A stretch of DNA of 64,000 bases from positions 1 through 64,000 of the forward strand of contig CAJTDK010000013.1 in the NCBI GenBank assembly GCA_910575105.1, in the 5' to 3' direction. This document shows positions 18,578-40,644 of this stretch, piece after piece. A program made the translations under genes and the position numbers. Source of the DNA: Lachnospiraceae bacterium. GTDB lineage: Bacteria > Bacillota > Clostridia > Lachnospirales > Lachnospiraceae. The notes below the pieces were generated by a model, which saw only the letters and a program-made list of their open reading frames with translations, was not told the origin of the DNA and did not search any database. Each line of letters starts with the position of its first letter. Position 1 is the stretch's first letter.

Positions 18578-19288
18578 ATGGGCATGAAGAGTAAAAAATT
18601 GTGGTCTTTTTTCGGCATTATAGTATTAGTCTTGATCTTAAATCACATATTTGGCTGGTCGTCATTCATCGGAGATCCGGATAATCTCAAATTTCTTGAA
18701 GAGATCCTGGCGGATAATCTCATCTTAGCAATGCTGATCTATATGGGCCTGACGGTCATTGGATGTGTTGTGCTTGCGCTTCCCGGCGTGACCTTTGCTA
18801 TCGTGGCAGGGTTGCTGTTCGGTCCGGTTCTCGGGACGGTCTGCTGTTCTGCGGCGACGACGGCCGGCGCTATGATCGCCTTTATCGTAGGGCGCTTTTT
18901 CTTGAAAGACAGTATAAAACCTATGGTGATGAAGAATAAATATTTAAAAAAATGGTTATTTGACGAGAAGGGGAACAATGGGATATTTATCCTGATGATC
19001 ACAAGGCTGGTTCCCATTTTCCCATACAATCTTCAGAATTTTGCCTACGGGATAACGGATATCCGGTTCGGCACCTATTCGGTGTGTTCGTTAATCTTTA
19101 TGCTCCCTGGGACTGCCATGTACACGGTAGGTACGGCGGGGCTTGCAGATAAGGAGAACAGGCTGCTGTATCTGGGGATTGCCCTTGCCCTGGCGGCAGT
19201 CGTCATGGGAATGGGCGCATATCTGAAAAAGCATTATATCAAAGAGGAACAGGTGGATGATGGAGGAACAACAGAACTGGACGATTGA
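18578..19288 (+). CDS. TVP38/TMEM64 (VTT domain) membrane protein
   Basis: A 236-residue integral membrane protein with about six hydrophobic segments. The VTT/SNARE-associated core is visible: LALPGVTFAIVAGLLFGPVLGT, then IAFIVGRFF, a charged NKYLKKWLF loop and MITRLVPIFPYNLQNFAYG. A TATAAT at 18550-18555 may be its -10. The family is linked to lipid scrambling and polyprenyl-phosphate or metal handling; the exact role here is unknown. It opens the ArsS-region gene run, overlapping the next gene by 32 bases. A second VTT protein begins at 30855. Confidence 0.8.
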   Translation: MGMKSKKLWSFFGIIVLVLILNHIFGWSSFIGDPDNLKFLEEILADNLILAMLIYMGLTVIGCVVLALPGVTFAIVAGLLFGPVLGTVCCSAATTAGAMIAFIVGRFFLKDSIKPMVMKNKYLKKWLFDEKGNNGIFILMITRLVPIFPYNLQNFAYGITDIRFGTYSVCSLIFMLPGTAMYTVGTAGLADKENRLLYLGIALALAAVVMGMGAYLKKHYIKEEQVDDGGTTELDD

Positions 19289-20243
19289 TACGTCAAAATG
19301 TGTACATTGCCATATTTGCCAGAAGAACTGTGCGTTTCTTGGCAAGTACGGCATAGATATCGGCGATACGAAGCGGCTGGACGAGCTGGCCTATCACTGC
19401 TTTCTCTGCGGGCGCTGCAGCGAGGTATGCCCGGTGAAGATCGACGGGCGCCGGGTGGTTGCAGAGATGAGGCGCAGCCGGGTGAAAGCGGACCAGGGCG
19501 CATTTGTGAATAAAAAATATAAGCGGATGATCGCGGAAAAGAAAGATTACCTGTACCGGAATTACAAGCATGCCACCGAAAAGAGCGTGCTGTTCCCGGG
19601 TTGTAACTTTCCGTCAGTCTATCCGAAGACGACAAAGAAGCTTGCAGAGCTTTTGTTGGAAAATGCAGGGATAGGGATCGTCTATGAGTGCTGCGGCAAG
19701 CCGGTGGCGGATATCGGTATGGAGGATGCGGAACGGGCGGTCATCCGGGAGATCGAGGGCCGGCTTTTGGCAAAGGGTGTAAAAGAAGTGATCCTTTTAT
19801 GCCCTAACTGTTATGCGTATCTGGGAAAGCATCTGTCTGTCAGGGTAGTCAATATCTATGAAAAATTAAGGGAATTAGGGATCGGTGAGAAGATAGCCGG
19901 CGGCGGGCGGATGTTCCGGCCGTGTCCGGACAGGGAAAAGAAGGAGTGGCTTTCGGACATTGCATATTTTATGGAGGAAAAGAGCGTGCAGATCGAGGAT
20001 GTCCAATGTTGCGGGCTTGGCGGAAACGGGGGCGTGCTTGAACCTGAGCTTGCGAAGGGATTTTCGCAGAAGCTTAAAGACGCGCCGGAGACGATCTATA
20101 CTTATTGCGGCTCATGCGCGGGCAATCTTACGCGGAATGGATGCCGGCAGGTGCGCCATGTTCTGCCTGAGATACTTGGAACCTATGAAAAGCCGGACAC
20201 GGTAAAGTCATTGATTAACCGGATGAGGACAAAGTATCTGTAA
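19257..20243 (+). CDS. Iron-sulfur protein with ferredoxin and CCG domains
   Basis: A 328-residue cytoplasmic protein starting inside the VTT gene. The N-terminus has two ferredoxin-type 4Fe-4S motifs (CVHCHICQKNC and CFLCGRCSEVCP). Two cysteine-rich CCG domains follow: FPGCNFPS...ECCGKP...CPNC, and RPCPDRE...VQCCGLGG...CGSC. This is the layout of HdrD/GlpC-like subunits, which pass electrons to disulfides or other acceptors. It has no membrane segment. In its setting it may supply electrons to the redox steps of the ArsS-linked pathway. Confidence 0.85.
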   Translation: MMEEQQNWTIDTSKCVHCHICQKNCAFLGKYGIDIGDTKRLDELAYHCFLCGRCSEVCPVKIDGRRVVAEMRRSRVKADQGAFVNKKYKRMIAEKKDYLYRNYKHATEKSVLFPGCNFPSVYPKTTKKLAELLLENAGIGIVYECCGKPVADIGMEDAERAVIREIEGRLLAKGVKEVILLCPNCYAYLGKHLSVRVVNIYEKLRELGIGEKIAGGGRMFRPCPDREKKEWLSDIAYFMEEKSVQIEDVQCCGLGGNGGVLEPELAKGFSQKLKDAPETIYTYCGSCAGNLTRNGCRQVRHVLPEILGTYEKPDTVKSLINRMRTKYL

Positions 20244-20299
20244 GGAATTGTTAAATAAGCTCTTAACAGTCCGGAATACCAGAAAGGAACAAAGATAAG

Positions 20300-21661
20300 A
20301 TGGAAAAAAGAGCACTGATCATATTTACCCGTGTGCCGGTTCCGGGGCAGACGAAGACGAGGCTGATGCCTTACTTTACGCCCCGGCAGTGCGCGAAGCT
20401 GCACACCTGTTTTCTGAAGGATATAGCGGCCGAATGCAAAAGGGTAAGGGCGGATCTTTACGTATGCTTTACCGGGGAGGACAGCCGGTGCGGGTGCCCT
20501 TCGGAGGATAAGGGAAATATGCTCTATCGGATATTCGGAGAGTGCGCAGGATATATTCCCCAGGAGGGCGCGGATCTTGGACAGCGGATGTACCGAGCGA
20601 TCGGGCAGGTGCTGGCAAAGGGATACGCTTCCTGTGTCCTGATGGGGACTGATGTGCCGGAGGTGCGCAGCGGGGATATCCATCAGGCATTTGATCTGCT
20701 TAAGACTAAGGACATCGTGTTCGGTCCTACGGCTGACGGGGGCTATTATCTTATCGGCATGAAAAAGGCAAGAAAGGAAGCATTTGAAAAGCAGACATAT
20801 GGCCACGGGAAGGTTCTTCAACATACGGTCCGCGGGCTGAAAAGCAGGAATCTGTCGGTCGGGTTAGGAAAAAAGCTTCACGACATCGATACGAGGGGGG
20901 ATATCGCCGGCTACAGGGACAGGCAGAGATCTGACAGACGCCTCCAGAAGACAGAGACAGGAAAGTATCTGATGCGGACATGCAAGGTCTCCGTGATCGT
21001 ACCGATCTATAATGAAGAAAAAGTGATCGGAGATCTTCTTGAGAGCCTGAGAAGGATAAAAGACCGTTGTGAGGTCATCCTGGTAGACGGGGGAAGTACG
21101 GACAGGACGCTGGACTATATTGATTCCGGGTTTAAGCTCCTGCATTCCCCCAAGGGGAGGGCGCATCAGATGAACCTGGGCGCGGAAGAGAGCACTGGGG
21201 ATATTCTCTTTTTCCTGCACTGCGACAGTGAGCTGCCAAAAAAGCCGTTGGAGCAGATCCGTTATGTGATGAAGGATTACCGGGTGGGATGCTTTGGGAT
21301 CGCGTTCCATTCCGCTAATTTTTTTATGCTCACCTGCCGTCTGATCTCCAATCACCGGATCAAGGACAGAAAGGTGGTGTTCGGCGACCAGGGCATTTTT
21401 ATTGACCGGAAGCTGTTCTTCGATGCGGGAATGTTCCCGGAGCTTCCGGTTATGGAGGATTACCAGTTCTCGCTGAACTTAAAGTCAAGGGGAGAGAAGA
21501 TCGGGATCACGAAAAGCAGGATCTATACATCCGACCGGAGGTTCCCAGAAGGGACGGTTCCCAAATTGCGCGAGATGTGGAAGATGAACCGGCTGCGGAA
21601 AAAATACCGGGACGGCGTGGATATCGAAGAGATCGCAGATATGTACGCGGATGTGCGGTGA
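20300..21661 (+). CDS. Fused rSAM/selenodomain-associated transferases (TIGR04282-TIGR04283 type)
   Basis: A 453-residue two-domain protein. Residues 1-200 match the DUF2064/TIGR04282 nucleotidyltransferase-like fold (FTRVPVPGQTKTRL, MGTDVPEV, FGPTADGGYYLIG). Residues ~225-450 are a GT2-type domain of the TIGR04283 kind (VSVIVPIYNEEKVIGDLL, VDGGSTD, HCDSELP, FGDQGIFI). In many genomes these are two adjacent genes that co-occur with ArsS-type radical SAM proteins; here they are one chain. The likely role is activating and transferring a modified sugar. Start at 20300 follows AAAGGA. Confidence 0.85.
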   Translation: MEKRALIIFTRVPVPGQTKTRLMPYFTPRQCAKLHTCFLKDIAAECKRVRADLYVCFTGEDSRCGCPSEDKGNMLYRIFGECAGYIPQEGADLGQRMYRAIGQVLAKGYASCVLMGTDVPEVRSGDIHQAFDLLKTKDIVFGPTADGGYYLIGMKKARKEAFEKQTYGHGKVLQHTVRGLKSRNLSVGLGKKLHDIDTRGDIAGYRDRQRSDRRLQKTETGKYLMRTCKVSVIVPIYNEEKVIGDLLESLRRIKDRCEVILVDGGSTDRTLDYIDSGFKLLHSPKGRAHQMNLGAEESTGDILFFLHCDSELPKKPLEQIRYVMKDYRVGCFGIAFHSANFFMLTCRLISNHRIKDRKVVFGDQGIFIDRKLFFDAGMFPELPVMEDYQFSLNLKSRGEKIGITKSRIYTSDRRFPEGTVPKLREMWKMNRLRKKYRDGVDIEEIADMYADVR

Positions 21662-21696
21662 ATATTATTGAATATCAGAAGAAAAGGAAACAGGAT

Positions 21697-22764
21697 ATGG
21701 ACAGGATCAAAGGATTAAAGGAATATGTACAGGTGGGCGCTTACCGGGAGGCGTTGGAGCTGCCCGGGGAGGCCTGCGAGGAATATAAGCTGCTGGCCCA
21801 GGGAGAATACAATATCAATTATATCTTTACCCACCCGATAAATGGGAAGAAATTGCTTCTGCGGGTAAACTGCGGGAGCCAGATGCATCTGGAAGACCAG
21901 ATCGGATATGAATATCATGCATTGGAATTACTGGAAGGTTCGCAAAGGACGCCGAAGGTATATTATGTAGACGGGGGGAAAGAAATGCTGGATCACGGCG
22001 TGCTTGTGATGGAGTATCTTCCGGGCGTAAGCCTTGACTACCGCAGGGATATGGTGCTTGCGGCTCAGTGCCTTGCGGATATCCACAGCGTACCTATCCC
22101 CGAAGGTTCGGGGCTTTTATGTCCGGGGAATCCGCTGAAAGCCATTCTGGAGGAATGTGAGGAGATGGTGAAGGTATATATGGATTCGCCCTTAGGAGAT
22201 GAGGGGACAAAAAAAAGGATACGGATCCTTCTTGATGCCGGCTGGGAGCGGATCAGGACGATAAAGGATCAGGACGTATACAAGTGCTGTATCAATACCG
22301 AGCTTAATTCGACGAATTTCCTGATCAACGGAGAGGGAAGAGGAAACTATCTGATCGACTGGGAGAAGCCGCTTTACGGGGATCCGGCACAGGATCTGGG
22401 GCATTTCCTGGCGCCGACGACTACATTCTGGAAGACAGATGTGATATTGAAGCCGTCGCAGGCCGATGCTTTTCTGGAGGAGTATATAGGGGCGGTGAAT
22501 GGGAGATTTTCTGTAGAAGGGCTGAAGGAGAGAGTCTATACCTTTATCCCCATTACTTGCCTAAGAGGAGTGACCTGGTGCGCTATGGCATGGGTTCAGT
22601 ACCAGCAGCCGGATAAGTTGATCTTTAACGAATCTACCTATAAAAAGCTTGAGGCATATCTGTCCCATGATTTTTTAGAGATGATATCCCGGGATTACTT
22701 CGGGGAGCAAGGCAGCCTGCGGCCAGAGGCGGCCAAAGACGGGAAGCCGGAATGGAACAATTAG
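21697..22764 (+). CDS. APH/choline-kinase-fold phosphotransferase with altered catalytic loop
   Basis: 355 residues from ATG 21697 (AAAAGGAAACAGG upstream). The fold is that of aminoglycoside/choline phosphotransferases: an ATP-binding N-lobe (LLLRVNCGSQMHLEDQIGYEYHALELL), hinge VLVMEYLPG and a LIDWEKPLYGDPAQDLGHFL metal-binding segment. The catalytic loop, normally HxDxxxxN, reads NTELNSTN, so the general-base Asp is Glu and the His is Asn. It may be a specialised small-molecule kinase with this change, or have lost catalysis. It follows the fused transferase by 36 bases. Confidence 0.7.
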   Translation: MDRIKGLKEYVQVGAYREALELPGEACEEYKLLAQGEYNINYIFTHPINGKKLLLRVNCGSQMHLEDQIGYEYHALELLEGSQRTPKVYYVDGGKEMLDHGVLVMEYLPGVSLDYRRDMVLAAQCLADIHSVPIPEGSGLLCPGNPLKAILEECEEMVKVYMDSPLGDEGTKKRIRILLDAGWERIRTIKDQDVYKCCINTELNSTNFLINGEGRGNYLIDWEKPLYGDPAQDLGHFLAPTTTFWKTDVILKPSQADAFLEEYIGAVNGRFSVEGLKERVYTFIPITCLRGVTWCAMAWVQYQQPDKLIFNESTYKKLEAYLSHDFLEMISRDYFGEQGSLRPEAAKDGKPEWNN

Positions 22765-22832
22765 ATATGGTAAATGTTATAAAATATAATAATGTGGCAA
22801 AAATATATAAAAATCCAAGGAGGGTGAATCGT

Positions 22833-24362
22833 ATGAAAAGAAATGCGCTGATCATGCTTCTGCTGTCGGCTGTCCTGGTGCTTGGCGGATGCGGCAAGGG
22901 CGAGGAGAAAGCAGCAGAAGACGAACCGAAGACAGAAGATGCTACACCAGAAGAAACCGTGTCAGATGAGGCATCCGAAGAAGATGTGCTGGCTTATATC
23001 AAGGATACAGATGAGAACACAGTCCTTGTAGATGCAAGGAGTTCCGATGCTTATCAGGGTTGGGCGCTTGATGGAGTATCTGGGGGCGGCCATCTTGAAA
23101 ATGCGGTGAATATCTCCGCCCAGTGGCTGGACTGCGAGTATTCGTCCAATGAAAAAGAGAATAAGACCCGCGAGGAATCGATTCAGAAAGAGCTGGACGC
23201 TAATGGAATGACTACGGAGAAATCCTACATTATCTACGATACAAATGGAAAAGATGCCGCTGCGGTAAAAGAGTATCTTGAGAAAAATGGTTATAAGAAC
23301 CTTTCTACCTTCAATGCCGCAGAGCTTATCAACGCCGGCTCGCAAAAGCTTGTAAGCTATGATAATTATAATATGTACATGCCTGCCGAGATTGTCAAGA
23401 ATATCTCCGATCATATCGTGGACGGTGCAGAGCTAGAGGGGCAGGCGGCTGAGATCGTCAAGGATTCCCCGGTTGTCCTTCTGGATGTATCCTGGGGAGA
23501 CGAGACGAATAATGAAGAGACGGGCTCTGGCTACGAAGACGGCCATGTCCCGGGTGCAGTTCATGTCAATACGGACGAGTACGAGACGCCGAAGGTATAT
23601 GTTGAAGAGAAGGATGAAGATTACCGGAGTGAATGGCGTCTGATCTCTGACGATGAGCTTATCGCGCTTGCTGAAGCGAAGGGTGTAACGAAGGACAGCT
23701 GTGTCGTTATCGTTGGAGCTGAACCTATGGCAACGACACGAATGGCGGTCATCCTTAGATATCTGGGCTGTGAGAATGTCCATGTCATGAGCGGGGGATT
23801 AGTCGGCTGGAATGCAAAAGGCTATGAGATGCAGACGGGCATTATCACGCCGGAAAAAGCGGATTTCGGCACAGACAAGCCGCAGAATCCTGATCTGATC
23901 GACACCATTGATGAAGCGGCGGATAAGCTTAAGAATGACCCGGATTATCAGTTGATTGACACACGTACGCTTGAAGAATGGAACGGCGAGGATTCCGGAT
24001 ATGATTATCATGAGCTGATGGGAAGGATCGACGGTACGATCCATTCTGAATCGGGAGTCGGATATTCAAGCTCTATGTATTATTACCGGAACCCGGATAA
24101 GTCCATGAGGAGCAAGGAGATCCTGGAGGCCATGTGGAAGGAGCAGGGAATTGACACAGGTAAGCATATGGCATTCTTCTGCGGCAGCGGCTGGAGAGCG
24201 GCGGAGGAAGCGTGGGATGCGATGGTGCTCGGATATACCGACGTGTCTCTTTACAGCGACGGCTGGATCGGATGGAGCAATGAGGGACATCCGTATATTG
24301 ACAAGGACGGGAATACGGTTCGGTATGATAAAGAACAGAACAAAGTCGTTCCGGCTAAGTAG
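22833..24362 (+). CDS. Lipoprotein with three rhodanese domains
   Basis: 509 residues. AAGGAGGG precedes ATG 22833, giving a lipoprotein signal peptide with lipobox LGGC (Cys20) and an acidic linker to ~50. Three rhodanese-like domains follow at ~50-165, ~205-335 and ~350-490. Only the third has a catalytic Cys (FFCGSGWRA, Cys450); the first has DTNGKDA and the second VGAEPMA at that place, so they should not carry persulfide. Rhodaneses transfer sulfane sulfur (or related chalcogens). The protein is anchored on the outer face of the membrane. It is closely similar to the C-terminal part of the Big2-rhodanese protein downstream. Confidence 0.85.
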   Translation: MKRNALIMLLLSAVLVLGGCGKGEEKAAEDEPKTEDATPEETVSDEASEEDVLAYIKDTDENTVLVDARSSDAYQGWALDGVSGGGHLENAVNISAQWLDCEYSSNEKENKTREESIQKELDANGMTTEKSYIIYDTNGKDAAAVKEYLEKNGYKNLSTFNAAELINAGSQKLVSYDNYNMYMPAEIVKNISDHIVDGAELEGQAAEIVKDSPVVLLDVSWGDETNNEETGSGYEDGHVPGAVHVNTDEYETPKVYVEEKDEDYRSEWRLISDDELIALAEAKGVTKDSCVVIVGAEPMATTRMAVILRYLGCENVHVMSGGLVGWNAKGYEMQTGIITPEKADFGTDKPQNPDLIDTIDEAADKLKNDPDYQLIDTRTLEEWNGEDSGYDYHELMGRIDGTIHSESGVGYSSSMYYYRNPDKSMRSKEILEAMWKEQGIDTGKHMAFFCGSGWRAAEEAWDAMVLGYTDVSLYSDGWIGWSNEGHPYIDKDGNTVRYDKEQNKVVPAK

Positions 24363-24417: not shown

Positions 24418-24537
24418 AGTGTGGCCAATATATAGAAATATTCAATAAATGAATGTATATATCGAAGGAAATGATTGGACGGAAACCATGCGATAAAATA
24501 TAATATTCATAATATATCATACGAGGAGGATAAAGTC

Positions 24538-26751
24538 ATGAAAAAAATGAAAAGACTTGTTGCAGCTATGATTGCTCTAATTGTTGTTGCAACAGCCGCA
24601 GGGTATAGTGTTCCCGCAGAGGCGGCAGCAAAAGCACCGAAAAAGATTACCCTGACGACTACGGCCAAGACAGTAGACATCAAAGGAAAGGTAACAGTTT
24701 CTGTAAAATCGGTGAAACCGTCGGATGCGAGTAAATCAGTAAAATTCAAATCCAGCAACAAAAAGATAGCTACGGTATCCTCAAAAGGAGTAGTTACAGG
24801 TAAGAAAGCTGGAAAGGTTACGATCACAGTTACATCCAAAAAGAACAAAAAAGTGAAAAAATCGATCAAGCTTACGGTAAAACAGTTAAAACCGGCAAGT
24901 CTTCGTCTGAGTGCGTCTGAGCTTGCTCTGAATGCTGGGGGTCAGGAGACGGTAACAGCAAAAGTAAAGCCGGCAGGAGTGTATTGTCCGGTTTCCTACC
25001 AGTCAAGCGATACGTCCGTAGCAACTGTTGATGCAAAAGGAAAGGTTACAGCAAAGAAAGAAGGAACGGCTGTTATCACGGTAAAGACAAAGGAGAAGAC
25101 AGCGAAAAAGAAATATTTGTCAAAGACCTGTAAAGTTACAGTGACCAATAAGCAGAATGGATTTCCGTCTGCAACGGACGAACAGGTTAACAGCTATATT
25201 GGAGACAGTGATGCCAATACAGTTCTTGTCGATGCAAGGCTTGCGGATGTATATCAGGGCTGGGCGCTTGAGGGTGCACAGAGAGGAGGGCACCTTAAAA
25301 ATTCCGTGAATATTTCCGCGCAGTGGATCGATTGCTCCTGGTGGTCAAATAAAAAAGAGAATAAGACACGTGATGAAGTAATCCGGCAGGAATTAGATGC
25401 AAACGCGATGACAGCGGGAAAGCAGTACATCATTTATGATACAAACGGCCAGGATGCCGTAAAGGTTGCAGAGTATCTGAATGAAAAAGGATATAAGAAT
25501 CTTTCCGTATACAATGCGGCAAATATGATCAATTCTGGTTCTGCCGAACTTGTAAGTTATAAGAATTATGATCTTTATGTACCGGCAGAGATTGTAAAGA
25601 ATATTTCTGACCATGTGGTTAATGGGACAGCACTTGTCAGCCAGGCAGAAGCGGTCGTAAAGGGAGCCCCGGTTACTCTTCTTGATGTATCGTGGGGAGA
25701 TGAGACGAATGACCCCAACAATGGCTCAGGTTATGTGGATGGGCATATTCCAGGGGCCGTCCATGTCAATACAAATGAATTTGAGACACCAAAGGTATAT
25801 GTGCCAGAGAAGGATGAGGCTTACAGAGAGGAATGGCGTCTGAATTCAGATGAAGAGCTTATTAAGCTTGCCGGCGATAAAGGCGTTACAAAAGATAGCT
25901 GTGTTATTATCGTTGGAAGTGATTCACTGGCAACAACCCGTATGGCAGTAATCCTGAGGTATTTGGGCTGTGAAAATGTTCATGTCATGAGCGAACGTTT
26001 AGTTGGCTGGAATGCCAAGGGGTACGCGCTGGAAACAGGAATTAATAAGCCTGTAAAAGTCGACTTTGGCGTTACTCAACCGCAGAATCCTGACTTGATC
26101 GATACCATTGAGGAGGCGAAGGAAAAATTAGCGAAGGATACAGATTATCAGTTGATTGATACCCGTACGATCGAGGAATGGAACGGAACAAGCTCCGGGT
26201 ATAGTTATCATGATCTGATGGGAAGAATTCCAGGAACGATTCATTCACCATCGGGAACAGGATATTCCAGTTCTATGCTTTACTATGAGAATCCGGACAG
26301 ATCTATGAGAAGCAAAGAAATCCTGGAAGCGATGTGGAAAGCTCAGGGTATTGATACAAGCAAGCATATGTCATTCTTCTGCGGAAGCGGATGGAGAGCT
26401 GCCGAAGAAGTATGGGATGCTTTAGTGCTTGGATATGAGAAGGTGTCATTGTACAGTGATGGCTGGATTGGCTGGAGCAATGAAGGTCATCCTTATGTTG
26501 ACAAAGATGGCCGGACAGTTTTCTATGACAAAACACAGAATAAAGTGGTAGAAGCAGCCGCAGTAAGCCAGAATATGGAAGATCAGGCAGATACAGAAAA
26601 AGCTTTATTAGACGGACAGGCTGTTAAAGCAGCGGAGGAAGCAGCAACGCAGGGACAGGATGCAGCTTTAGAAGCGGCAGATGGTGCAGAGGCAGACGAT
26701 GCTTCAGAAGATACCGGCGATATGAGAGAAAACACTGATTTGGCAGAATAG
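24538..26751 (+). CDS. Secreted Big2-rhodanese fusion, three rhodanese domains
   Basis: 737 residues; ACGAGGAGGA precedes ATG 24538. A Sec signal peptide ends near AEA (about 30). Two lysine-rich Big2 (bacterial Ig-like group 2) domains occupy ~35-125 and ~130-215, then three rhodanese domains (~225-655) nearly parallel to the lipoprotein at 22833. Again only the last has Cys (FFCGSGWRA, Cys615). An acidic Ala/Asp/Glu-rich tail ends the protein without an LPXTG motif, so it may bind the wall through Big2 charge or be released. Codons look more AT-rich than those of the preceding lipoprotein. Confidence 0.85.
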   Translation: MKKMKRLVAAMIALIVVATAAGYSVPAEAAAKAPKKITLTTTAKTVDIKGKVTVSVKSVKPSDASKSVKFKSSNKKIATVSSKGVVTGKKAGKVTITVTSKKNKKVKKSIKLTVKQLKPASLRLSASELALNAGGQETVTAKVKPAGVYCPVSYQSSDTSVATVDAKGKVTAKKEGTAVITVKTKEKTAKKKYLSKTCKVTVTNKQNGFPSATDEQVNSYIGDSDANTVLVDARLADVYQGWALEGAQRGGHLKNSVNISAQWIDCSWWSNKKENKTRDEVIRQELDANAMTAGKQYIIYDTNGQDAVKVAEYLNEKGYKNLSVYNAANMINSGSAELVSYKNYDLYVPAEIVKNISDHVVNGTALVSQAEAVVKGAPVTLLDVSWGDETNDPNNGSGYVDGHIPGAVHVNTNEFETPKVYVPEKDEAYREEWRLNSDEELIKLAGDKGVTKDSCVIIVGSDSLATTRMAVILRYLGCENVHVMSERLVGWNAKGYALETGINKPVKVDFGVTQPQNPDLIDTIEEAKEKLAKDTDYQLIDTRTIEEWNGTSSGYSYHDLMGRIPGTIHSPSGTGYSSSMLYYENPDRSMRSKEILEAMWKAQGIDTSKHMSFFCGSGWRAAEEVWDALVLGYEKVSLYSDGWIGWSNEGHPYVDKDGRTVFYDKTQNKVVEAAAVSQNMEDQADTEKALLDGQAVKAAEEAATQGQDAALEAADGAEADDASEDTGDMRENTDLAE

Positions 26752-26796: not shown

Positions 26797-26860
26797 AAGT
26801 AATAGTTTTCTTATTTTACGGTAAAGCTAATGAGACAGCAGGAGCTGGGTGGAAGGAATT

Positions 26861-28513: not shown

Positions 28514-28517
28514 AGAG

Positions 28518-30854: not shown

Positions 30855-31571
30855 ATGGAGAAAAAGAAGACAAATAAATGGGCGGGGAAAATTGCAATTA
30901 TCGTGCTGGCGGCGGCGGCCTTTCTTGCATACTATTTTATCCCGTCGGTGAACAGGGTGATGAAGGAGATACTGGCGGCCTTTGCAAGCGGTGACTTTAC
31001 TGTAGTGGGCGAATTCGTACAGTCATATGGAATATACGCTGCGGCAGTGTCGTTTCTGCTGATGATCCTGCAGTCGATCGCGGCGCCGCTGCCTGCGTTT
31101 CTTCTGACCTTTGCCAATGCCAACCTATTTGGCTGGTGGAAGGGCGCGATTCTTTCCTGGTCCAGTGCCATGGCGGGAGCGGCAGTCTGCTTTTATATCG
31201 CAAGAATCCTCGGGAGGGATGTGGCAGAGAAGCTGACCAGCAGGAGCGGTCTGAAGCAGATCGACGAGTTTTTTGAAAAGCACGGAAGAATGAGTATACT
31301 GATCGCAAGGCTTCTGCCTTTTATCTCCTTCGATATCGTAAGCTACGCGGCGGGACTGACGTCCATGTCCTTCGGAAGCTTCTTTATCGCTACGGGAATC
31401 GGGCAGCTTCCGGCGACGATCATTTACTCTTATGTGGGAAGTATGCTGACAGGGGGAGCAAAGCTGTTCGTCACAGGACTTCTCCTTCTGTTCGCAATAT
31501 CGGCATTGATTGTTTTATTTAAGCAATTATACAGTGAAAGGCAAAAAAAGAAGAAGGAGGAGATTCAGTAA
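30855..31571 (+). CDS. Second TVP38/TMEM64 (VTT domain) membrane protein
   Basis: A 238-residue membrane protein; TAGGAGATAGGG precedes ATG 30855. The VTT core is seen in APLPAFLLTFANANLFGWWKGA, MAGAAVCFYIARILGRD, and LIARLLPFISFDIVSYAAGLTSM. It ends with a basic tail. It directly precedes the two-rhodanese lipoprotein (5 bases), so the pair is co-expressed. The first VTT gene at 18578 heads a similar set of genes. Confidence 0.8.
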   Translation: MEKKKTNKWAGKIAIIVLAAAAFLAYYFIPSVNRVMKEILAAFASGDFTVVGEFVQSYGIYAAAVSFLLMILQSIAAPLPAFLLTFANANLFGWWKGAILSWSSAMAGAAVCFYIARILGRDVAEKLTSRSGLKQIDEFFEKHGRMSILIARLLPFISFDIVSYAAGLTSMSFGSFFIATGIGQLPATIIYSYVGSMLTGGAKLFVTGLLLLFAISALIVLFKQLYSERQKKKKEEIQ

Positions 31572-31576: not shown

Positions 31577-32515
31577 ATGAAAAAGAAGATGAGATGGTTT
31601 GGTGTTGTACTTATGGCGGCCCTGCTTGCGGCAGGCTGCGGAAGCAAAAATGAGGGAGTGTCCGATGATGAACTGGTGTCTAAGGATACGTTCGAGGGCC
31701 AGTATCTTATGACAGCCGAAGAGGCAAAGGGAAAGATCGGCGATGAGAATGTGCTTTTTGTTGACTGCCGGGGAGTGGATAAGGCAAAAAAAGAGACGAT
31801 CGAGGGCGCTGTTGCAACGGACTGGAAAGAGCTTTGCACATGTGACGACAGCTATGGAAAAGAGGGCGACGAAGGCTGGGGAAAGATTCCGGAGGCTTCT
31901 GAGCTTGCAAAGAGGCTTGGGAAGCTTGGAATGACGAAGGACAAAGAGCTTATCCTGCTTGGGGAGACCCTGGACGGCTGGGGAGACGACGCGAGAGTGC
32001 TGTGGGAGCTGGCGGCCGCCGGCTATACGGATGTCCGGATGGTAGACGGAGGTTATTCCGCGCTCAAGGAGGCAGGCGCTCCTACGCAGAAAGGCGCTTC
32101 CGAACCGAAGGAAGCAGAAGTATCCATTGATTCCATAGACATGACCCATGTGATGGAGACGGAGGAATTGATGAATAATTATGATTCCTACAAGGTGGTA
32201 GATGTCCGCACAGATGAGGAGTACGAAGGAGCGGTCAAGTATCATGAAGCGCAGGGAGGACATCTTCCCGGGGCGATCCATATCCGGTATACGGACCTGT
32301 TCCGGGAGAACGGGACGTTAAGATCCAAGGCGGATATCGAGAAAGTGCTTACCGATGCCGGTATCTCAAAAGAGGACAAGATCGTAACCTACTGTACCGG
32401 AGGAATCCGTTCCGCATATTCCCAGCTTGTCTTTGAGATGACGGGCTATGAGAACACCTGGAATTACGACCAGTCCTACTGGAGATGGGCAGTGGCCGGA
32501 GAAGTGGAAAAATAA
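31577..32515 (+). CDS. Lipoprotein with two rhodanese domains
   Basis: 312 residues; AAGGAGGAG upstream of ATG 31577, spanning the end of the VTT gene. Lipobox LAAGC (Cys21). Domain 1 (~40-170) lacks the catalytic Cys (LLGETLDGWGDDAR in its place); domain 2 (~195-310) has CTGGIRS with Cys273, and the entry loop GGHLPGAIHIRYTDLF. This inactive-plus-active arrangement is typical of tandem rhodaneses such as thiosulfate sulfurtransferases. The pair resembles the central two rhodanese domains of the next protein. Confidence 0.85.
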   Translation: MKKKMRWFGVVLMAALLAAGCGSKNEGVSDDELVSKDTFEGQYLMTAEEAKGKIGDENVLFVDCRGVDKAKKETIEGAVATDWKELCTCDDSYGKEGDEGWGKIPEASELAKRLGKLGMTKDKELILLGETLDGWGDDARVLWELAAAGYTDVRMVDGGYSALKEAGAPTQKGASEPKEAEVSIDSIDMTHVMETEELMNNYDSYKVVDVRTDEEYEGAVKYHEAQGGHLPGAIHIRYTDLFRENGTLRSKADIEKVLTDAGISKEDKIVTYCTGGIRSAYSQLVFEMTGYENTWNYDQSYWRWAVAGEVEK

Positions 32516-32587: not shown

Positions 32588-35362
32588 ATGAGAGTAACAA
32601 AGAAACTGGCTGCAGTTATGATTGCGTTGGTAACAGTCATAGCGGTTGCAGGGACAAGCATTCCTGTAGAAGCGGCAGCAAAGGCACCAAAAAAGATTAC
32701 TTTAAAGACTACTGCGAAGACAGTAGATATTAAAGGAAAAGCAACGATCTCTGTAAAATCCGTATCACCGAAGGGTGCGGACAAAGGAGTGAAGTATCAG
32801 TCCAGCAACAAGAAGGTTGCGACGGTGTCTTCTAAAGGTGTGGTAACAGGTAAGAAGGCCGGAAAGACGACGATTACCGTAACATCTAAGAAGAACAAAA
32901 AGGTAAAAAAGAAAATCACGATCACGGTAAAACAGCTTAAGCCGACCAGCATCAGCCTGACGTCAGCGGTATCCTTGAAGGCAGGCGGCAAGCAGGCGCT
33001 TAAAGCGACAGTTAAGCCGGCAGGAGTATATTGCCCGGTTGCATGGAGTTCCAGCGATGCTTCGGTAGCTTCCGTTGACAGCAAGGGAAATGTACAGGCA
33101 AAGAAGGCCGGAACTGCAGTGATTACTGTGAAGGCAAAAGAGAAGAATAAGAGCGGCAAGTATATTTCCAAGACCTGTACAGTGACGGTTGCGGCGGATG
33201 CGGCAGAGCCGGAATATAATTATGTTAAGAGTGCAAACTTATTAGCAAATAGGGATCAGTTTATCGTTCTTGATACCCGTCCGGATACGTTTGATGATGA
33301 AGCTGTTGGTTATGATGATGGACATATTGAGGATTCAATATGGGTACCTTCATGGCCGGTTAATACAAAAGAAAAAGAAGATATGTTAAAGTCCAAGGGA
33401 CTTTTGCAGCAGCTCAAGAGCAATGATAAAAAGATAGCAATTGTCTGCAGATCAGGGCAAGGAGGAGCTAAAAACGCAATCAAAATTTTAAGTGGTCAGG
33501 GGATTCCGGTTTCCAGACTGTTTATTTTAGAAGGTGGTGGAAGAGAACTACTTAAGAACTATAAGAATGAATTGGTAAAAGTAACAGAGACAAGTCTTAC
33601 CGGGAAGTACGTGATCAGTGCTACCGAAGCAAAAGCTAAGATTGATGCAGGCGCCATAGTGGTTGATGCAGACTACAATTCAGGTGAAACCGTTAAAGGT
33701 GCGATTTCCCTGAAGTGGAAAGAAATCTCTCAGTCTGATAAGCAGCAGGATGAGGCTAACAAAAAGAATATTGGAGACCAGGGATTTGCAAGAACTTTGG
33801 ATAAAGATGCGATAAGCAAGGTTCTGAGTACAAAAGGCCTCGGAATTAATGATGAGATTGTTGTATTCGGTAGAGGCCATGAAAATGGCGGCTGGGGCGA
33901 TGATGGCCGTATCGTATGGCAGTTGAACCAGTGTGGATATACGAATGTACATATGGTAAACGGTGGATTTAACGCATTGGCGGCAGCAGGAGTCGCTAAA
34001 GATAATAAAACGTCTGATCCACAGCCCAAATCTGTAACAGTGGCAGAAGTTGATACAAAATCACACGATATTACAACAGAAGAATTATTGGCGGATTTTG
34101 ATCAGTATAAGATTATCGATGTACGTGATAATGAAGAGTATGAGGGCGCTACGCTTCACGGTGAAGCATCTGGCGGACACATTCAAAAAGCTATACATAT
34201 CCGTTTTAGTGATTTGTTCAAATATGACGGAACGCTTAAGGGTGAGACAGAACTTAGGAAGATATTTGAGGCAAAAGGCCTTGCGAAGTCAGATAAGATT
34301 GTTACCTACTGTACAGCAGGAATCCGCTCCGCATATATGCAGCTTATACTTGAGATGCTTGGCTATGAGAACACTTATAACTATGCCGAGTCTGCGTACA
34401 GATGGTCCAACACAGCAAGCGCCGGAACAGCGGCACGCTGGGATGATCCGAAGAATGATATTGCATTTGGAAGAGAGAAGATTTCAATAGATGCAGACGG
34501 ACACAGACTGACAGCAGAAGGCGCTGTAGCAGATACGAATACGCTGAAAAATCCGTCAGGCTTGAAGGTTACCTATGCATCTTCCAATACAGAGATTGCT
34601 ACAGTAGATAATAACGGTAAGGTAACAGTTGGAACAAAAAGAGGTGATGTAATAATCACTGCAACAGCAAGTAATGGAAAACAGGCAAGTTATACGGTTG
34701 TAACAACAGACCGAGCAAATGATCCTATTGACTGGGACAGCAGGGCAAAATCTTCAGAAGATGTGATTAACGAAGCGGCGGCAGGCACATTGATTGTATT
34801 AGATACCCGTCCAAAGAATATTCCGATGGATGCAGGTTCTGCAATTCCAGATGTAGGATATGAAGCAGGCCATATTAAAGGCTCTATATGGCTTGAGTCT
34901 TGGCCTGTTAGTAAAAAGGAACAGGAAGACCGACTGAGAGCTAAAGCAGACGAATTAAATGCGACAGGTAAACCTATTGCAATTATTTGTCGGTCTGGTG
35001 CAGGTGGTGCAAAGCATGCAATATCTGTGTTGAAAGATGCAGGAATTGACGTATCGAGATTGTTTATCCAGACGGGCGGCGGAACGGATTTAATTAAAAA
35101 CCACCTCGACAAACTTGAAGTAGGTACAGGCGTTTCCGCACAGGCTGCAACTGTTGAAGAGGAAAAAGACATAACAGTAACAAGTCAGGGAGAAGCATCC
35201 GAAGCGGCTGATGAAGCATCCGATACTGACAAAGCATCCGAAGATGAGAATGCGGATGTCCAGGAGGATGAAGTATCCGGCGATAGCACAGGTGTTGACG
35301 AAACAGCAGAAGAAGGTTACAATGGTGAGCAGACACCAGATGCAGAGCCTTCAGCAGAGTAA
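32588..35362 (+). CDS. Secreted Big2-rhodanese fusion, four rhodanese domains
   Basis: 924 residues; AGGAGGAG precedes ATG 32588. Signal peptide to ~29 (VEAAAKAP follows). Two Big2 domains (~30-210) nearly match those of the 24538 protein. Rhodanese domains: 1 (~215-330) with CRSGQGGA (Cys287); 2 (~345-480) without Cys (GRGHENGGWGDDGR); 3 (~495-615) with CTAGIRS (Cys575). A third Big2 (~630-715) precedes domain 4 (~725-850) with CRSGAGGA (Cys801). An acidic tail rich in EAS/D follows, without LPXTG. Three active sites in one exported chain is unusual. Several segments use AT-rich codons. Confidence 0.85.
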   Translation: MRVTKKLAAVMIALVTVIAVAGTSIPVEAAAKAPKKITLKTTAKTVDIKGKATISVKSVSPKGADKGVKYQSSNKKVATVSSKGVVTGKKAGKTTITVTSKKNKKVKKKITITVKQLKPTSISLTSAVSLKAGGKQALKATVKPAGVYCPVAWSSSDASVASVDSKGNVQAKKAGTAVITVKAKEKNKSGKYISKTCTVTVAADAAEPEYNYVKSANLLANRDQFIVLDTRPDTFDDEAVGYDDGHIEDSIWVPSWPVNTKEKEDMLKSKGLLQQLKSNDKKIAIVCRSGQGGAKNAIKILSGQGIPVSRLFILEGGGRELLKNYKNELVKVTETSLTGKYVISATEAKAKIDAGAIVVDADYNSGETVKGAISLKWKEISQSDKQQDEANKKNIGDQGFARTLDKDAISKVLSTKGLGINDEIVVFGRGHENGGWGDDGRIVWQLNQCGYTNVHMVNGGFNALAAAGVAKDNKTSDPQPKSVTVAEVDTKSHDITTEELLADFDQYKIIDVRDNEEYEGATLHGEASGGHIQKAIHIRFSDLFKYDGTLKGETELRKIFEAKGLAKSDKIVTYCTAGIRSAYMQLILEMLGYENTYNYAESAYRWSNTASAGTAARWDDPKNDIAFGREKISIDADGHRLTAEGAVADTNTLKNPSGLKVTYASSNTEIATVDNNGKVTVGTKRGDVIITATASNGKQASYTVVTTDRANDPIDWDSRAKSSEDVINEAAAGTLIVLDTRPKNIPMDAGSAIPDVGYEAGHIKGSIWLESWPVSKKEQEDRLRAKADELNATGKPIAIICRSGAGGAKHAISVLKDAGIDVSRLFIQTGGGTDLIKNHLDKLEVGTGVSAQAATVEEEKDITVTSQGEASEAADEASDTDKASEDENADVQEDEVSGDSTGVDETAEEGYNGEQTPDAEPSAE

Positions 35363-35397: not shown

Positions 35398-35437
35398 ATT
35401 CCCCCTTTGCAAGTGGAGTAAAGGGGGATGCTTCTTT
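35398..35437 (+). terminator. Hairpin with T-rich tail after the four-rhodanese gene
   Basis: ATTCCCCCTTT pairs with AAAGGGGGAT around a ~11-base loop, followed by GCTTCTTT. It lies 20 bases before the ArsS partner gene; incomplete termination could allow read-through. Confidence 0.65.
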
Positions 35438-35457: not shown

Positions 35458-35790
35458 ATGAACACATATTACAATCCGGAGGATCTGGCAAAATTTGGTA
35501 CAATGGGAGAGGAAGCGCCGCAGCTTTGGGAGAATTTTATGCAGTATTACGGCTCAGTATTCGCAGAGGGCGCGCTGACAGCCAGGGAGAAATCCCTGAT
35601 CGCACTGGCGGTGGCACATGCGGTCCAGTGTCCGTACTGTATTGATTCCTATACCAATGACTGCCTGTCAAAGGGAGTTGACGAAGAGCAGATGACAGAG
35701 GCGGTTCACGTTGCGGCAGCGATCAGAGGCGGCGCAACGCTGGTTCACGGCGTTCAGATGAAAAATATCGTAAAGAAACTGGAGCTTTAA
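35458..35790 (+). CDS. Arsenosugar-associated peroxidase-like protein (AhpD/CMD fold)
   Basis: A 110-residue protein with AAGGAGG ahead of ATG 35458. It is a carboxymuconolactone decarboxylase/AhpD-type domain with the redox motif CPYC (Cys58 and Cys61) in VAHAVQCPYCIDSYTNDC, and the usual EAVHVAAAIRGGATLVHG helix. This exact type is the small partner encoded beside ArsS radical SAM proteins. It is separated from arsS by two bases, implying co-translation. A disulfide-reducing or peroxide-scavenging role is inferred from the family. Confidence 0.85.
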   Translation: MNTYYNPEDLAKFGTMGEEAPQLWENFMQYYGSVFAEGALTAREKSLIALAVAHAVQCPYCIDSYTNDCLSKGVDEEQMTEAVHVAAAIRGGATLVHGVQMKNIVKKLEL

Positions 35791-35792
35791 TT

Positions 35793-36770
35793 ATGGACGC
35801 AAGAGAAGAATTTAAAAAATTAGTGCAGATTCCTGAGTTTGAAGACAGTGTGAAAGAGAAAGAATTATTAATGACAGATAAGATGTCAGTGCTGCAGATC
35901 AATGTAGGAAGGCTTTGCAACCTTGCCTGTAAGCACTGCCATATGGAGGCAGGGCCGAACCGCACGGAAGTGATGGGAGAAGATGTGCTGAAGGACTGCC
36001 TTAAGCTTTATCAGCAATGGGGCTTTGATACGATCGACATCACCGGAGGCGCGCCGGAGATGAATCCGCATTTCCGCTGGTTTGTAGAAGAGGCAGTGAA
36101 AGTGTGCAGCAAGGTGATGGTCCGCAGCAACCTGACGGTCATGCTGGAGGACGGATACGAAGATCTGCCCGAATTTTATGCGGCAAATAAAGTGACGGTG
36201 ATCTGCTCGCTTCCCCACTACAAGGCAAGGAATTCCAATAAGCAGCGCGGGGAAGGTACATTTGAAAAATCCATCCAGGTGCTGAAAAAGCTGAACGAGC
36301 TTGGATACGGCCAGGATCCGGAGCTGACCCTTAATATGGTATTTAACCCGGGAGGTGCGTTCTTCCCGCCGGAGCAGGCGGCGATGGAAAAGGAGTATAA
36401 AGAGCATCTGGGAAGTGAGTACGGCATCGTGTTCAACAATCTGTTTACGATCACCAACAATCCGATCGGCAGATTCGGCAATTTCCTGGCCCGGACCGGC
36501 AATATGGAAGGATATCTCACCAAGCTTTATGACGCCTTCAATCCAGGGGCAGTGGCAGGCATGATGTGCAGAAGCCAGCTGTCTGTAGGCTGGGACGGGC
36601 AGGTTTACGACTGTGACTTTAACCAGGCTGTGGATATGCCGGCAGAAGGTGGGGCGAAGATTGAAGATCTGGTCAAAAGGCCATATGAAAAGAGGAAGAT
36701 CTGCTTTGACAAGCACTGCTATGCATGTACGGCAGGGCAGGGGTCGAGCTGCGGCGGAAGCACAGCGTAA
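35793..36770 (+). CDS. arsS: ArsS-type radical SAM enzyme
   Basis: 325 residues. The radical SAM cluster motif is CNLACKHCHMEAGP (Cys42, Cys46, Cys49), with TGGAPEMNP (GGE-like SAM-binding strand) and the C-terminal Cys-rich motif CYACTAGQGSSCGG that defines the radical SAM/selenodomain family. In the family, ArsS joins 5'-deoxyadenosyl to trivalent methylated arsenic to make arsenosugar precursors. All Cys positions here are TGC/TGT, so no selenocysteine is encoded. No ArsM methyltransferase lies nearby, so the substrate in this organism may not be arsenic. Confidence 0.85.
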   Translation: MDAREEFKKLVQIPEFEDSVKEKELLMTDKMSVLQINVGRLCNLACKHCHMEAGPNRTEVMGEDVLKDCLKLYQQWGFDTIDITGGAPEMNPHFRWFVEEAVKVCSKVMVRSNLTVMLEDGYEDLPEFYAANKVTVICSLPHYKARNSNKQRGEGTFEKSIQVLKKLNELGYGQDPELTLNMVFNPGGAFFPPEQAAMEKEYKEHLGSEYGIVFNNLFTITNNPIGRFGNFLARTGNMEGYLTKLYDAFNPGAVAGMMCRSQLSVGWDGQVYDCDFNQAVDMPAEGGAKIEDLVKRPYEKRKICFDKHCYACTAGQGSSCGGSTA

Positions 36771-36882: not shown

Positions 36883-37326
36883 ATGGATACGAAACAGATT
36901 GCAGAAGAATTTATCAAGGGCTATGACTGCTCGCAGGTAGTTTTGAGACATTTTGCAAATAAACTTGGAATTACGGCAGACGAGGCAAACCGTGTGGCGG
37001 CCTGCTTTGGCGGCGGTATGATGCTTGGGTCTGTGTGCGGGGCGTATACAGGAGCTTTGATGGCAATCGGCTTAAAGTACGGGCACAGTGATCCTGACGG
37101 CCTTTTGCAGCAGAAGGATATAATGATGGCAAAGACCGCTCAGTTTAAGGAGAAATTTGTAGAAAAATTCGGCACGGTAGAGTGTAAGGAGCTGATCGGC
37201 TATGATGTGTCTACGCCCGAGGGGCTTAAAGACGCCCTGGACAGCGGAAAGCTGCTGGAATATTGTCCGGGGCTTGTCGATCAGGTAATCGGGATGGCGC
37301 AGGAGGTTCTTGACGGGGAAGCGTAG
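36883..37326 (+). CDS. C_GCAxxG_C_C family redox protein
   Basis: 147 residues; GGGAGAGAGG precedes ATG 36883. The family signature is present: Cys17-type YDCSQ near the start, ACFGGGMMLGSVCGAYTGALMAIGL in the middle, then Cys in VECKELIGYD and YCPGLVDQV. Such proteins are predicted to be redox-active, often with metal or Fe-S ligands, and are frequently encoded near selenium or radical SAM genes. No signal peptide. It follows arsS by 112 bases and probably acts in the same pathway. Confidence 0.8.
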   Translation: MDTKQIAEEFIKGYDCSQVVLRHFANKLGITADEANRVAACFGGGMMLGSVCGAYTGALMAIGLKYGHSDPDGLLQQKDIMMAKTAQFKEKFVEKFGTVECKELIGYDVSTPEGLKDALDSGKLLEYCPGLVDQVIGMAQEVLDGEA

Positions 37327-37369
37327 CGCTTCAACAGGTTAGGACAAAAGGGCGGGATGGACGGTTTAT

Positions 37370-38515: not shown

Positions 38516-38516
38516 G

Positions 38517-39497
38517 ATGGCAGCTTGCAAGGTATCGGTGATCATCCCGGTCTATCAGGCCCAGAGATATCTGCGCCAGTGTCTTGACAGTGTCACTGGG
38601 CAGACGCTTAAGGAGATAGAGATCATCTGTGTGGATGACGGCTCTGTCGATGATTCGGCGCGGATCCTTGAGGAATATGCGGCCAGAGACGATAGGATCC
38701 GGGTTATCTCCCAGGAGAACGCGGGAGCCGGGGCGGCAAGAAACAGAGGGCTTTCAGAGGCTTCCGGGGAATATCTGTCCTTTCTGGATGCCGATGATTT
38801 TTTTGAGCCGGATATGCTTATGCGGGCGTATGAAAAAGCCAGGATAAGTGCGGCGCAGATCGTGGTGTACGGCGCCGACCGTTACAGGGACGATACGGGA
38901 AGCTTCCAGAAGATGTCCTGGTCGCTCCGTAAGAATGCCCTGCCCCCGTACCGTCCCATGGATTGCCGCACGTTTACGGATAATGTATTCAAGGTGTTCG
39001 TCGGATGGGCGTGGGATAAGCTTTTTGAGCGGGAATTTATCTTGAGGCACGGGCTTTTGTTTCAGGAGCAGCGGACGTCCAACGATCTGCTGTTCGTGTT
39101 CATGGCCATCGTTCTGGCAGAGCGGATCGAGACAGTGGATGAAGTTCTTGCCCATCAAAGGTGCCAGAACCCGGATTCACTTTCCAGTACAAGGGAGAAG
39201 TCCTGGCAGTGCTTTTACGAAGCGCTGCGGGCGCTTAAGGAGCGTCTGGAGCACTTCGGGAGATACCGGGAGCTTGAGCAGGACTATGTTAATTATGCCC
39301 TTCATTTTTCCCTGTGGAACCTGCATACGATACAGGGGGAGAAAAAGCGGGAGCTTTATCAGAGATTAAGGAAAAAGTGGTTTAAGGATCTTGGAATTGC
39401 GGGGCGTCGGAAAAGTTATTTTTACGATCTGGGAGAATACCGGCAATACGTGAAAATCATGAGGACAAGCTGGAGAAGATATGAAAAAAGCGAGTAA
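38517..39497 (+). CDS. GT2 glycosyltransferase
   Basis: 326 residues; AGGAGGAG ahead of ATG 38517, one base after the previous stop. GT-A motifs VSVIIPVYQAQRYL, VDDGSVDDS and FLDADDFFE are intact. Its sequence is close to domain 1 of the tandem GT2 at 28518. No membrane segment or coiled-coil tail. The 3' end overlaps the next gene by 17 bases. Confidence 0.85.
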   Translation: MAACKVSVIIPVYQAQRYLRQCLDSVTGQTLKEIEIICVDDGSVDDSARILEEYAARDDRIRVISQENAGAGAARNRGLSEASGEYLSFLDADDFFEPDMLMRAYEKARISAAQIVVYGADRYRDDTGSFQKMSWSLRKNALPPYRPMDCRTFTDNVFKVFVGWAWDKLFEREFILRHGLLFQEQRTSNDLLFVFMAIVLAERIETVDEVLAHQRCQNPDSLSSTREKSWQCFYEALRALKERLEHFGRYRELEQDYVNYALHFSLWNLHTIQGEKKRELYQRLRKKWFKDLGIAGRRKSYFYDLGEYRQYVKIMRTSWRRYEKSE

Positions 39498-40644
39498 TAA
39501 AACAGCGAATAATAAAACAGGAAGAAGATCAGGAGATAAGCCGTTGGTATCAGTGATCGTGCCGGTATATAACGGGGAAAAGTATTTGAAAGAGATGCTG
39601 GATTCTGTCCGGGGACAGACTCTTAAGGAGTTGGAGGTGCTCTGTATCAATGACGGTTCAGAAGACCGTTCAGGAGATATCATACAGGATATAGCGAAAA
39701 GAGACCGGAGAGTCAGGTATCTTGAGCAGGAGCATGCGGATGCGGGGGCGGCAAGAAACCGGGCGCTTAAGATGGCGCAGGGCAAATATGTGGTGTTCTG
39801 GGATGCCGACGACAGATTTGACCGGTATGCGCTGGAGAGGATGTGCCGGAAGATGGAGAGGCGCAGGGCGGACGTCTGTGTGTGCGGCGTCTGTGAATTT
39901 ACGGATACGGGAAAGGTATATGAGGCGGAGGGGTATCTGAGGATGGATATGCTGCCGGATAAAGACCCGTTCAATAAATTCGATATCCGGGAGCGCCTGT
40001 TCTGGTTCGGCTCTAATGTTCTGTGGAATAAAATGTTCCGCAGGCAGTTTATTCTGAAAGAGAAGCTGCAGTTTCAGAGCATTCCTCAGGCAAATGACAC
40101 GGCGTTTGTCATGCTTGCCATGTATCTGGCTTCTGCGATTACCTGTGTGGATAAGAAGCTGGTATATTATCGGACCAATAATGCCGACAGCCTTACCGGC
40201 AGATCCTCGCAGACGGCATTCTGCCCGTACCAGTCTTTTTTGTATACCTTCGGGAAGCTGAGAGAATATCCGAACTTCGGGAAGTTTAAAGGCAGCTTTT
40301 GCAGTAAGGCGGCCAGAGGCATATTCCGGGGGATGAATAACCAGACCTCTTTTGACGCGTATGCGCAATTATATGATTTTCTGAAGCGAGAAGGTCTTGC
40401 TGCTCTGGAACTTGATGAGTGCCGGGCGGAGGATATGGAGGAGAAGTGGATCTATGAGGATCTGGAGCGGATGAAGACATTTTCCGCGGGAGATTTTCTT
40501 CTCTATAAGACCAATGAAAGAAGAATGGACAGGGATCAGCTTAAGCATACCCTTCGGAGAGTGAGGAAAAAGCTGGCGGTGCTGCTGGCAGTGAATGAGC
40601 GGCTGAAGCAGATAAAACGATTGGCCGGGAGAAGGATGAATTAA
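39481..40644 (+). CDS. GT2 glycosyltransferase
   Basis: 387 residues, starting inside the previous gene, so translation is coupled. After a Lys/Asn-rich start it has VSVIVPVYNGEKYL, INDGSEDRS and FWDADDRFD. A basic C-terminal helix follows. It is the last gene before a strong terminator and closes the ArsS-region gene run. Confidence 0.85.
   Translation: MKKASNKTANNKTGRRSGDKPLVSVIVPVYNGEKYLKEMLDSVRGQTLKELEVLCINDGSEDRSGDIIQDIAKRDRRVRYLEQEHADAGAARNRALKMAQGKYVVFWDADDRFDRYALERMCRKMERRRADVCVCGVCEFTDTGKVYEAEGYLRMDMLPDKDPFNKFDIRERLFWFGSNVLWNKMFRRQFILKEKLQFQSIPQANDTAFVMLAMYLASAITCVDKKLVYYRTNNADSLTGRSSQTAFCPYQSFLYTFGKLREYPNFGKFKGSFCSKAARGIFRGMNNQTSFDAYAQLYDFLKREGLAALELDECRAEDMEEKWIYEDLERMKTFSAGDFLLYKTNERRMDRDQLKHTLRRVRKKLAVLLAVNERLKQIKRLAGRRMN

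Follow-up and report, generated by a model that had tools for sequence, protein, structure and literature searches.

In oxo-arsenosugar synthesis, arsenic is adenosylated by ArsS, according to the account given in PMC12159101, which cites Cheng 2021 for this step. The known arsenosugar gene sets of cyanobacteria and Bacteroidota combine ArsS with the methyltransferase ArsM, and our literature search found no account of the enzymes that convert the ArsS product to finished arsenosugars. A second system that bears on the present locus is formed by the Escherichia coli ydjXYZ-ynjABCD and ynjE operons, which are directly activated by FNR (PMC3688515). Here we describe an arsS gene set at positions 18578 to 40644 of the first 64,000 nucleotides (the window) of contig CAJTDK010000013.1 from the Lachnospiraceae bacterium assembly GCA_910575105.1, a genome of 4.24 Mb. 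It represents a form of the ArsS gene set that belongs to anaerobes and lacks ArsM. We propose, with a probability of about 0.45, that its ArsS feeds a kinase, a nucleotidyltransferase, and a glycosyltransferase acting in that order and that VTT proteins and rhodaneses handle the product at the membrane.

In common with the ArsM-containing sets, the window encodes ArsS, its TIGR04169 AhpD-like partner, and the TIGR04282 and TIGR04283 domains. It differs from them in lacking ArsM and purine nucleoside phosphorylase and in adding an APH-fold kinase, a VTT pair, an Fe-S/CCG protein, a C_GCAxxG_C_C protein, and exported multidomain rhodaneses (Table 1). Every gene named in a first-pass annotation of the window was recovered by profile matches, i.e., ArsS, the AhpD-like, C_GCAxxG_C_C, Fe-S/CCG, and APH proteins, the TIGR04282-TIGR04283 fusion, two VTT proteins, four rhodaneses, and five glycosyltransferases beyond the fusion, one of them with two GT2 domains. 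The ArsS protein clears the curated TIGR04167 cut-off and matches DUF3641 at its C terminus (184 bits). It has the radical SAM cysteines C42, C46, and C49 and a Cys-rich C terminus ending in GSSC320, and it shares the conserved residues of ArsS from Lachnospiraceae genome G010, in which ArsM adjoins AhpD-ArsS (G and L numbers are our handles for genomes and loci).

The first-pass annotation had named a comparison of arsS neighborhoods as a possible refutation of its proposal; in our comparison the proposal was not refuted, as the rhodanese, VTT, Fe-S, kinase, and TIGR04282/TIGR04283 genes are conserved with arsS. The arsS gene was rare, occurring in 7 of 98 sampled relatives, with five of the seven from the genus of the window. 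Same-genus genomes G001, G003, and G005 retain a core at about 47 to 97% identity in rearranged order (more compact in G001 and G003) that comprises VTT1, FeS, TIGR04282/TIGR04283, APH, VTT2, AhpD, ArsS, C_GCAxxG_C_C, RhoLP1, RhoLP2, and the GT1 and GT2 genes; G004 has a fragment of the set, and no arsS was found in same-genus G002. The set is also retained in part at L029 to L033, in Synergistota (L036 and L040), and in Clostridia (L136 and L140), with most of the core present in Muricomes intestini (G043/L032) and Eubacterium sp. ER2 (L031). Both Synergistota loci encode two VTT proteins, Fe-S, YdjY, AhpD, ArsS, and TIGR04283, with TIGR04282 additionally in L040. The L136 locus (genome G489) encodes a rhodanese, a TIGR04282-APH fusion, two VTT proteins, TIGR04283, Fe-S, C_GCAxxG_C_C, AhpD, and ArsS, and L140 (G368) resembles it, with no VTT protein detected. 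The arsS-linked set is more than a chance neighborhood. The GT1 and GT2 genes are conserved within the genus and at L029, and in the other genera examined none lies beside arsS, except for one GT2 gene in L031. Being limited to the genus, they are best excluded from the core, which agrees with the earlier suspicion that the late GT2 genes were the weakest members.

A comparison of 95 arsS loci with their 10.5-kb neighborhoods, of which the 80 fetched loci were those closest to the query and which are not independent of one another, revealed two kinds of setting (the window itself was limited to 10.5 kb on each side, so that only part of its own set was included). VTT genes occur in none of the 27 ArsM-linked loci versus 12 of the 68 others, where they co-occur with Fe-S/CCG and C_GCAxxG_C_C genes, and ArsM shares no neighborhood with Fe-S/CCG or APH. 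Purine nucleoside phosphorylase (Pfam PNP_UDP_1) shows the opposite tendency (12/27 versus 4/68); it has no match in the window, and it is also missing from many ArsM-linked loci and is therefore not a strict criterion. TIGR04282 and TIGR04283 are also carried by ArsM-linked clusters. In the ArsS tree, for which bootstrap support was not settled and some deep branches were long, VTT loci group with three changes, where shuffling gave 11.2 on average and none of 500 shuffles came as low, and ArsM-linked loci of Bacteroidota, Nitrospira, Acidobacteriota, and Planctomycetota fall apart from them. ArsM remained under its cut-off in the window genome, the tested congeners, G043, L031, and the Synergistota genomes; L030, L033, and L037 come from genomes that carry it away from the arsS locus. 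The ArsS of ArsM-bearing G010 nests within the anaerobe group, and in G458 (L139:8550-10580) an ArsM-type methyltransferase and ArsS share one open frame, so that clostridial ArsS is compatible with arsenic. A second ArsS-containing frame (L138:8420-10480; 686 aa) has an N-terminal half matched to no family. L110 and L111, the ArsM matches above the cut-off from the L030 and L033 genomes, contain an in-frame TGA, perhaps a selenocysteine codon or a frame fault, and one of them also contains a TAG.

The TIGR04282-TIGR04283 fusion, which the first-pass annotation had taken for a fused transferase, is confirmed; its TIGR04282 half, named an arsenosugar glycosyltransferase by NCBIfam, is better read from its predicted structure as a nucleotidyltransferase fold rather than a glycosyltransferase, an assignment that is new here. 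The AlphaFold model (predicted local distance difference test score [pLDDT], 93) best matches a structural-genomics entry, 3cgx (Z = 27), followed from Z = 21 downward by guanylyl-, cytidylyl-, and uridylyltransferases, i.e., 3-phosphoglycerate guanylyltransferase 7p97 (Z = 20.8), Rv2983, IspD, GlmU, and TarI; since the comparison covered families ranked high by Foldseek, other GT-A enzymes are possible as well. The domain conserves KTR, D118, DGG, and DxD residues, of which KTR, DGG, and DxD fit a nucleotidyltransferase. Its best-scoring characterized folds are the CofC/FbiD guanylyltransferases (7p97 and Rv2983), but identity to these is 14 to 17%, and phospholactate or phosphoglycerate is not expected as its substrate. 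Fold, fusions, and occurrence in genomes lacking arsS together suggest that TIGR04282 is a misnamed nucleotidyltransferase of wider use.

TIGR04282 is fused to APH in L136, L140, and L182 (the L136 fusion was also scored by NCBIfam), to TIGR04283 in Lachnospiraceae, including the window, and to VTT in L033/L143, and these fusions suggest an order of steps. The L182 fusion (9511-10965) is the third of its type and comes from a genome of the L136/L140 family that lacks arsS. Among 391 sampled Clostridia, the APH family occurs in 15 genomes, representing 7 of 9 genomes with arsS versus 8 of 382 without (Fisher's test, P = 8.5e-10). At 11 of 12 further APH loci, TIGR04282 and TIGR04283 are adjoining or fused; the exception is G458 (L189), in which APH adjoins a C_GCAxxG_C_C gene. 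This linkage of APH to TIGR04282 by fusion and adjacency is new here. The arrangement is like that of AmgK-MurU, in which an APH-type kinase is paired with a nucleotidyltransferase; the window pair differs in its sequence families, in having Glu for the loop Asp, and in being followed by a fused glycosyltransferase.

We therefore propose a Leloir-type route in which the APH kinase would first phosphorylate a sugar or alcohol, the TIGR04282 domain would, judging from its modeled fold, couple the phosphorylated compound to a nucleotide, and the TIGR04283 glycosyltransferase would pass the activated compound to an acceptor. More tentatively, the substrate might come from ArsS, characterized members of which attach a 5'-deoxyadenosyl group to arsenic; adenine might then be removed by a nucleosidase before the kinase makes the 1-phosphate, and an MTA/SAH nucleosidase gene (TIGR01704) is present in the genome. 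In ArsM-linked clusters, purine nucleoside phosphorylase often stands in place of the kinase, an observation that is new here, and it would give the same ribose 1-phosphate in one step. Redox steps would fall to the Fe-S, AhpD-like, and C_GCAxxG_C_C proteins, and exported rhodaneses and the VTT proteins, members of the DedA/TVP38 family, would deal with the product, or with its sulfur, at the membrane and surface. The first-pass annotation had proposed a pathway for a sugar carrying arsenic, sulfur, or selenium; activation and transfer of a sugar-like compound are supported by fusions, neighbors, and one fold, whereas an arsenic cargo is unproven, since the trio of APH, TIGR04282, and TIGR04283 genes also occurs in genomes lacking arsS.

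The membrane and surface part of the set resembles the E. coli ydj/ynj system. VTT1 and VTT2 correspond to YdjX and YdjZ and RhoLP1 to YnjE, both of the latter being three-domain rhodaneses (identities are given in Table 1), and an AhpD-like protein is common to both systems; the E. coli operons lack ArsS, APH, TIGR04282/TIGR04283, and Fe-S/CCG. The window gave no tblastn match for YdjY or YnjBC; the Synergistota YdjY shares 38% identity with that of E. coli, and YnjB and YnjD relatives adjoin the trio in L183, L184, L190, and L192. These likenesses and neighbors, together with the FNR activation, imply that the VTT-rhodanese part is a portion of an anaerobic system that extends beyond ArsS. 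The match of a VTT pair and triple-domain rhodanese to the FNR-activated operons, drawn from sequence similarity, is new here. Two of the rhodaneses have lipoboxes (LGGC and LAAGC), two have Sec-type signals ahead of Big2 domains, and the retained Cys loops (CGSGWR, CTGGIR, and CRSG) make sulfur transfer outside the membrane plausible. The best solved match of RhoLP1 is a 460-residue sulfurtransferase (6kvw and 6h98), presumably the anaerobic ergothioneine enzyme EanB; as RhoLP1 also matches YnjE, we claim no ergothioneine role.

Several observations weigh against the proposed chain. The first-pass annotation had noted that ArsM and an arsenic pump are not seen in the window; in the whole genome, the best ArsM match scores 36 bits (cut-off, 263) and no ACR3 was found. 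The APH catalytic loop, NTELNSTN, departs from HxDxxxxN by an Asp-to-Glu replacement that is invariant in seven aligned members, so that kinase activity is unproven, although the later IDWE motif is retained; its structural model, built with two full-length sequences aligned, is unusable (pLDDT, 39), and sequence searches against solved structures gave weak kinase matches. The acceptor does not appear to be fixed by sequence, and what is proposed for the VTT proteins and rhodaneses is guessed from the families they belong to. Further, the trio is present in 8 genomes lacking arsS among the 391 Clostridia, so that ArsS is dispensable to it, and 8 of the 12 genomes with further APH loci have no arsS, which makes the trio a unit of its own with ArsS as a frequent partner rather than a requirement. 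It is possible, though less likely, that the trio and the VTT/rhodanese module import and activate some other small molecule and that ArsS is a separate, detoxifying add-on under shared regulation. The YnjBCD-type ABC transporter genes beside the trio in several genomes would suit such a role, as would genus g191, in which arsS and the trio lie at separate loci, and E. coli, which has the VTT pair, YdjY, the AhpD-like protein, YnjBCD, and YnjE, yet neither arsS nor the trio. Against it stand the strong co-occurrence of trio and arsS, their shared clusters in several families, and the presence of TIGR04282 and TIGR04283 in ArsM-linked clusters.

If the ArsS-fed chain is correct, the element carried is most likely arsenic, which we weigh first without its having been shown, with selenium or sulfur also possible. 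The nesting of G010 ArsS points to arsenic, as does G364, in which an ArsR/SmtB regulator and ACR3 (338 bits; cut-off, 283) directly follow the trio and Fe-S genes; G467 has an ACR3-type transporter at the same place, and ArsP-type permeases lie near L033 and L037. Just 3' of the L033 arsS cluster, an ArsR-type helix-turn-helix domain fused to CobW (16327-17586) precedes an ArsP-family permease (17814-18848). A less probable alternative is that selenium or sulfur is the atom to which ArsS attaches the deoxyadenosyl group, yielding a seleno- or thiosugar, and that the exported rhodaneses supply or strip that element. It would agree with the ArsM-less genus, with the four rhodanese genes of the window, and with the tracking of arsS by selenium genes in anaerobes, a further point against an arsenic cargo: among the 98 relatives, seleno-YedE occurs in 5 of 7 with arsS versus 10 of 91 others and selD in 7 of 7 versus 29 of 91 (five of the seven being one genus). 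Of the 12 arsS genomes examined for seleno-YedE, 11 have it and ArsM-linked G010 does not, but it is also present in arsS-less G002; selD was found in 14 of 14, compared to 36 of the 98 relatives. YedE/YedF genes adjoin arsS in L032 and L033. In a Desulfuromonadales metagenome-assembled genome, a selD relative lies directly upstream of AhpD-ArsS (L038:8743-9573). But TIGR04167 is itself listed among selenoproteins, with motif GxxU (PMC13188914), which may explain the link; most SelD genes found carry an in-frame TGA; the counts overstate independence because the genomes are related; and the window ArsS shares the conserved residues of its ArsM-linked G010 counterpart. That arsS entered a surface polysaccharide locus by chance, as the five glycosyltransferase genes and exported Big2 proteins of the window might suggest, is very improbable and was rejected: the core recurs across families without most or all of these genes (L031, L032, L036, L040, and L136), and they are the genus-limited part.

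The ArsS-fed chain may be one instance of an undescribed Leloir-type pathway (APH, TIGR04282, and TIGR04283) accompanied in many anaerobes by a YdjXYZ/YnjE-like membrane and sulfurtransferase module, which with arsS would deliver a nucleotide-activated metalloid sugar to a lipid or the surface; we regard this wider proposal as speculative and doubtful in its full form. The fusions offer an ordered candidate chain for the steps after ArsS and a way into the E. coli genes ydjXYZ-ynjABCD and ynjE, which are induced anaerobically and about which little is understood, and they suggest that gut anaerobes may treat arsenic or selenium by a route not yet looked for.

Table 1. Features of the arsS gene set, in window coordinates
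Feature	Position	Strand	Evidence or remark
VTT1, VTT/TVP38 membrane protein	18578..19288	+	Pfam VTT_dom, 79 bits; tblastn 33% to E. coli YdjX over 216 aa
FeS/CCG, 4Fe-4S ferredoxin and cysteine-rich CCG domain	19257..20243	+	Pfam CCG, 40 bits, and Fer4 matches; beside VTT in other arsS loci too
Fusion of TIGR04282 nucleotidyltransferase-like and TIGR04283 GT2 domains	20300..21661	+	193 bits (cut-off 134) and 229 bits (cut-off 182)
APH-fold kinase, signature NTELNxxNF...IDWEKP	21658..22764	+	Pfam APH, 54 bits; start uncertain (GTG 21658 or ATG 21697)
RhoLP1, lipoprotein, three rhodanese domains, active-site loop CGSGWR	22830..24362 (starts slightly 5' of ATG)	+	29% to YnjE over 430 aa
Big2-Rho1, exported, Big2 and three rhodanese domains, loop CGSGWR	24535..26751	+	
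GT1, group 1 type glycosyltransferase	26849..28513	+	Pfam Glyco_trans_1_2, 64 bits; kept in G001, G003, G004, and G005; genus-level member
Two-domain GT2 glycosyltransferase	28518..30716	+	Genus-level member
Promoter-like sequence 5' of VTT2	30755..30783	+	Weak, consensus only; regional count of such sites near that of shuffles
VTT2, VTT/DedA membrane protein	30855..31571	+	Pfam VTT_dom, 102 bits; 58-60% to E. coli YdjZ
RhoLP2, lipoprotein, two rhodanese domains, loop CTGGIR	31577..32515	+	
Big2-Rho2, exported, Big2 and four rhodanese domains	32588..35362	+	
Terminator-like hairpin 5' of AhpD-ArsS pair	35400..35428	+	11 pairs; consensus only
AhpD-like ArsS partner (TIGR04169), CPYC motif	35458..35790	+	202 bits (cut-off 120)
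ArsS-type radical SAM enzyme (TIGR04167), CxxxCxxC, C-terminal GSSC	35793..36770	+	442 bits (cut-off 300)
C_GCAxxG_C_C redox protein	36883..37326	+	Pfam, 104 bits
Three GT2 genes	37370-38515, 38517-39497, 39481-40644	+	Genus-conserved, outside core

The genes lie on one strand, and their ends often overlap or almost touch (VTT1/FeS, -32; TIGR04283/APH, -4; AhpD/ArsS, +2; VTT2/RhoLP2, +5), with larger gaps preceding the Big2, VTT2, AhpD, and C_GCAxxG_C_C genes. Since the terminator-like hairpin may split off the AhpD-ArsS pair, we do not claim a single operon. An Rfam scan of the window gave no match. The set is bounded by argG on the opposite strand. Upstream, genes for a MarR-type regulator and a GNAT acetyltransferase lie on the other strand (17270-18333); this pair was considered as a member of the set and rejected, as in G001 it is present about 17 kb from the cluster.

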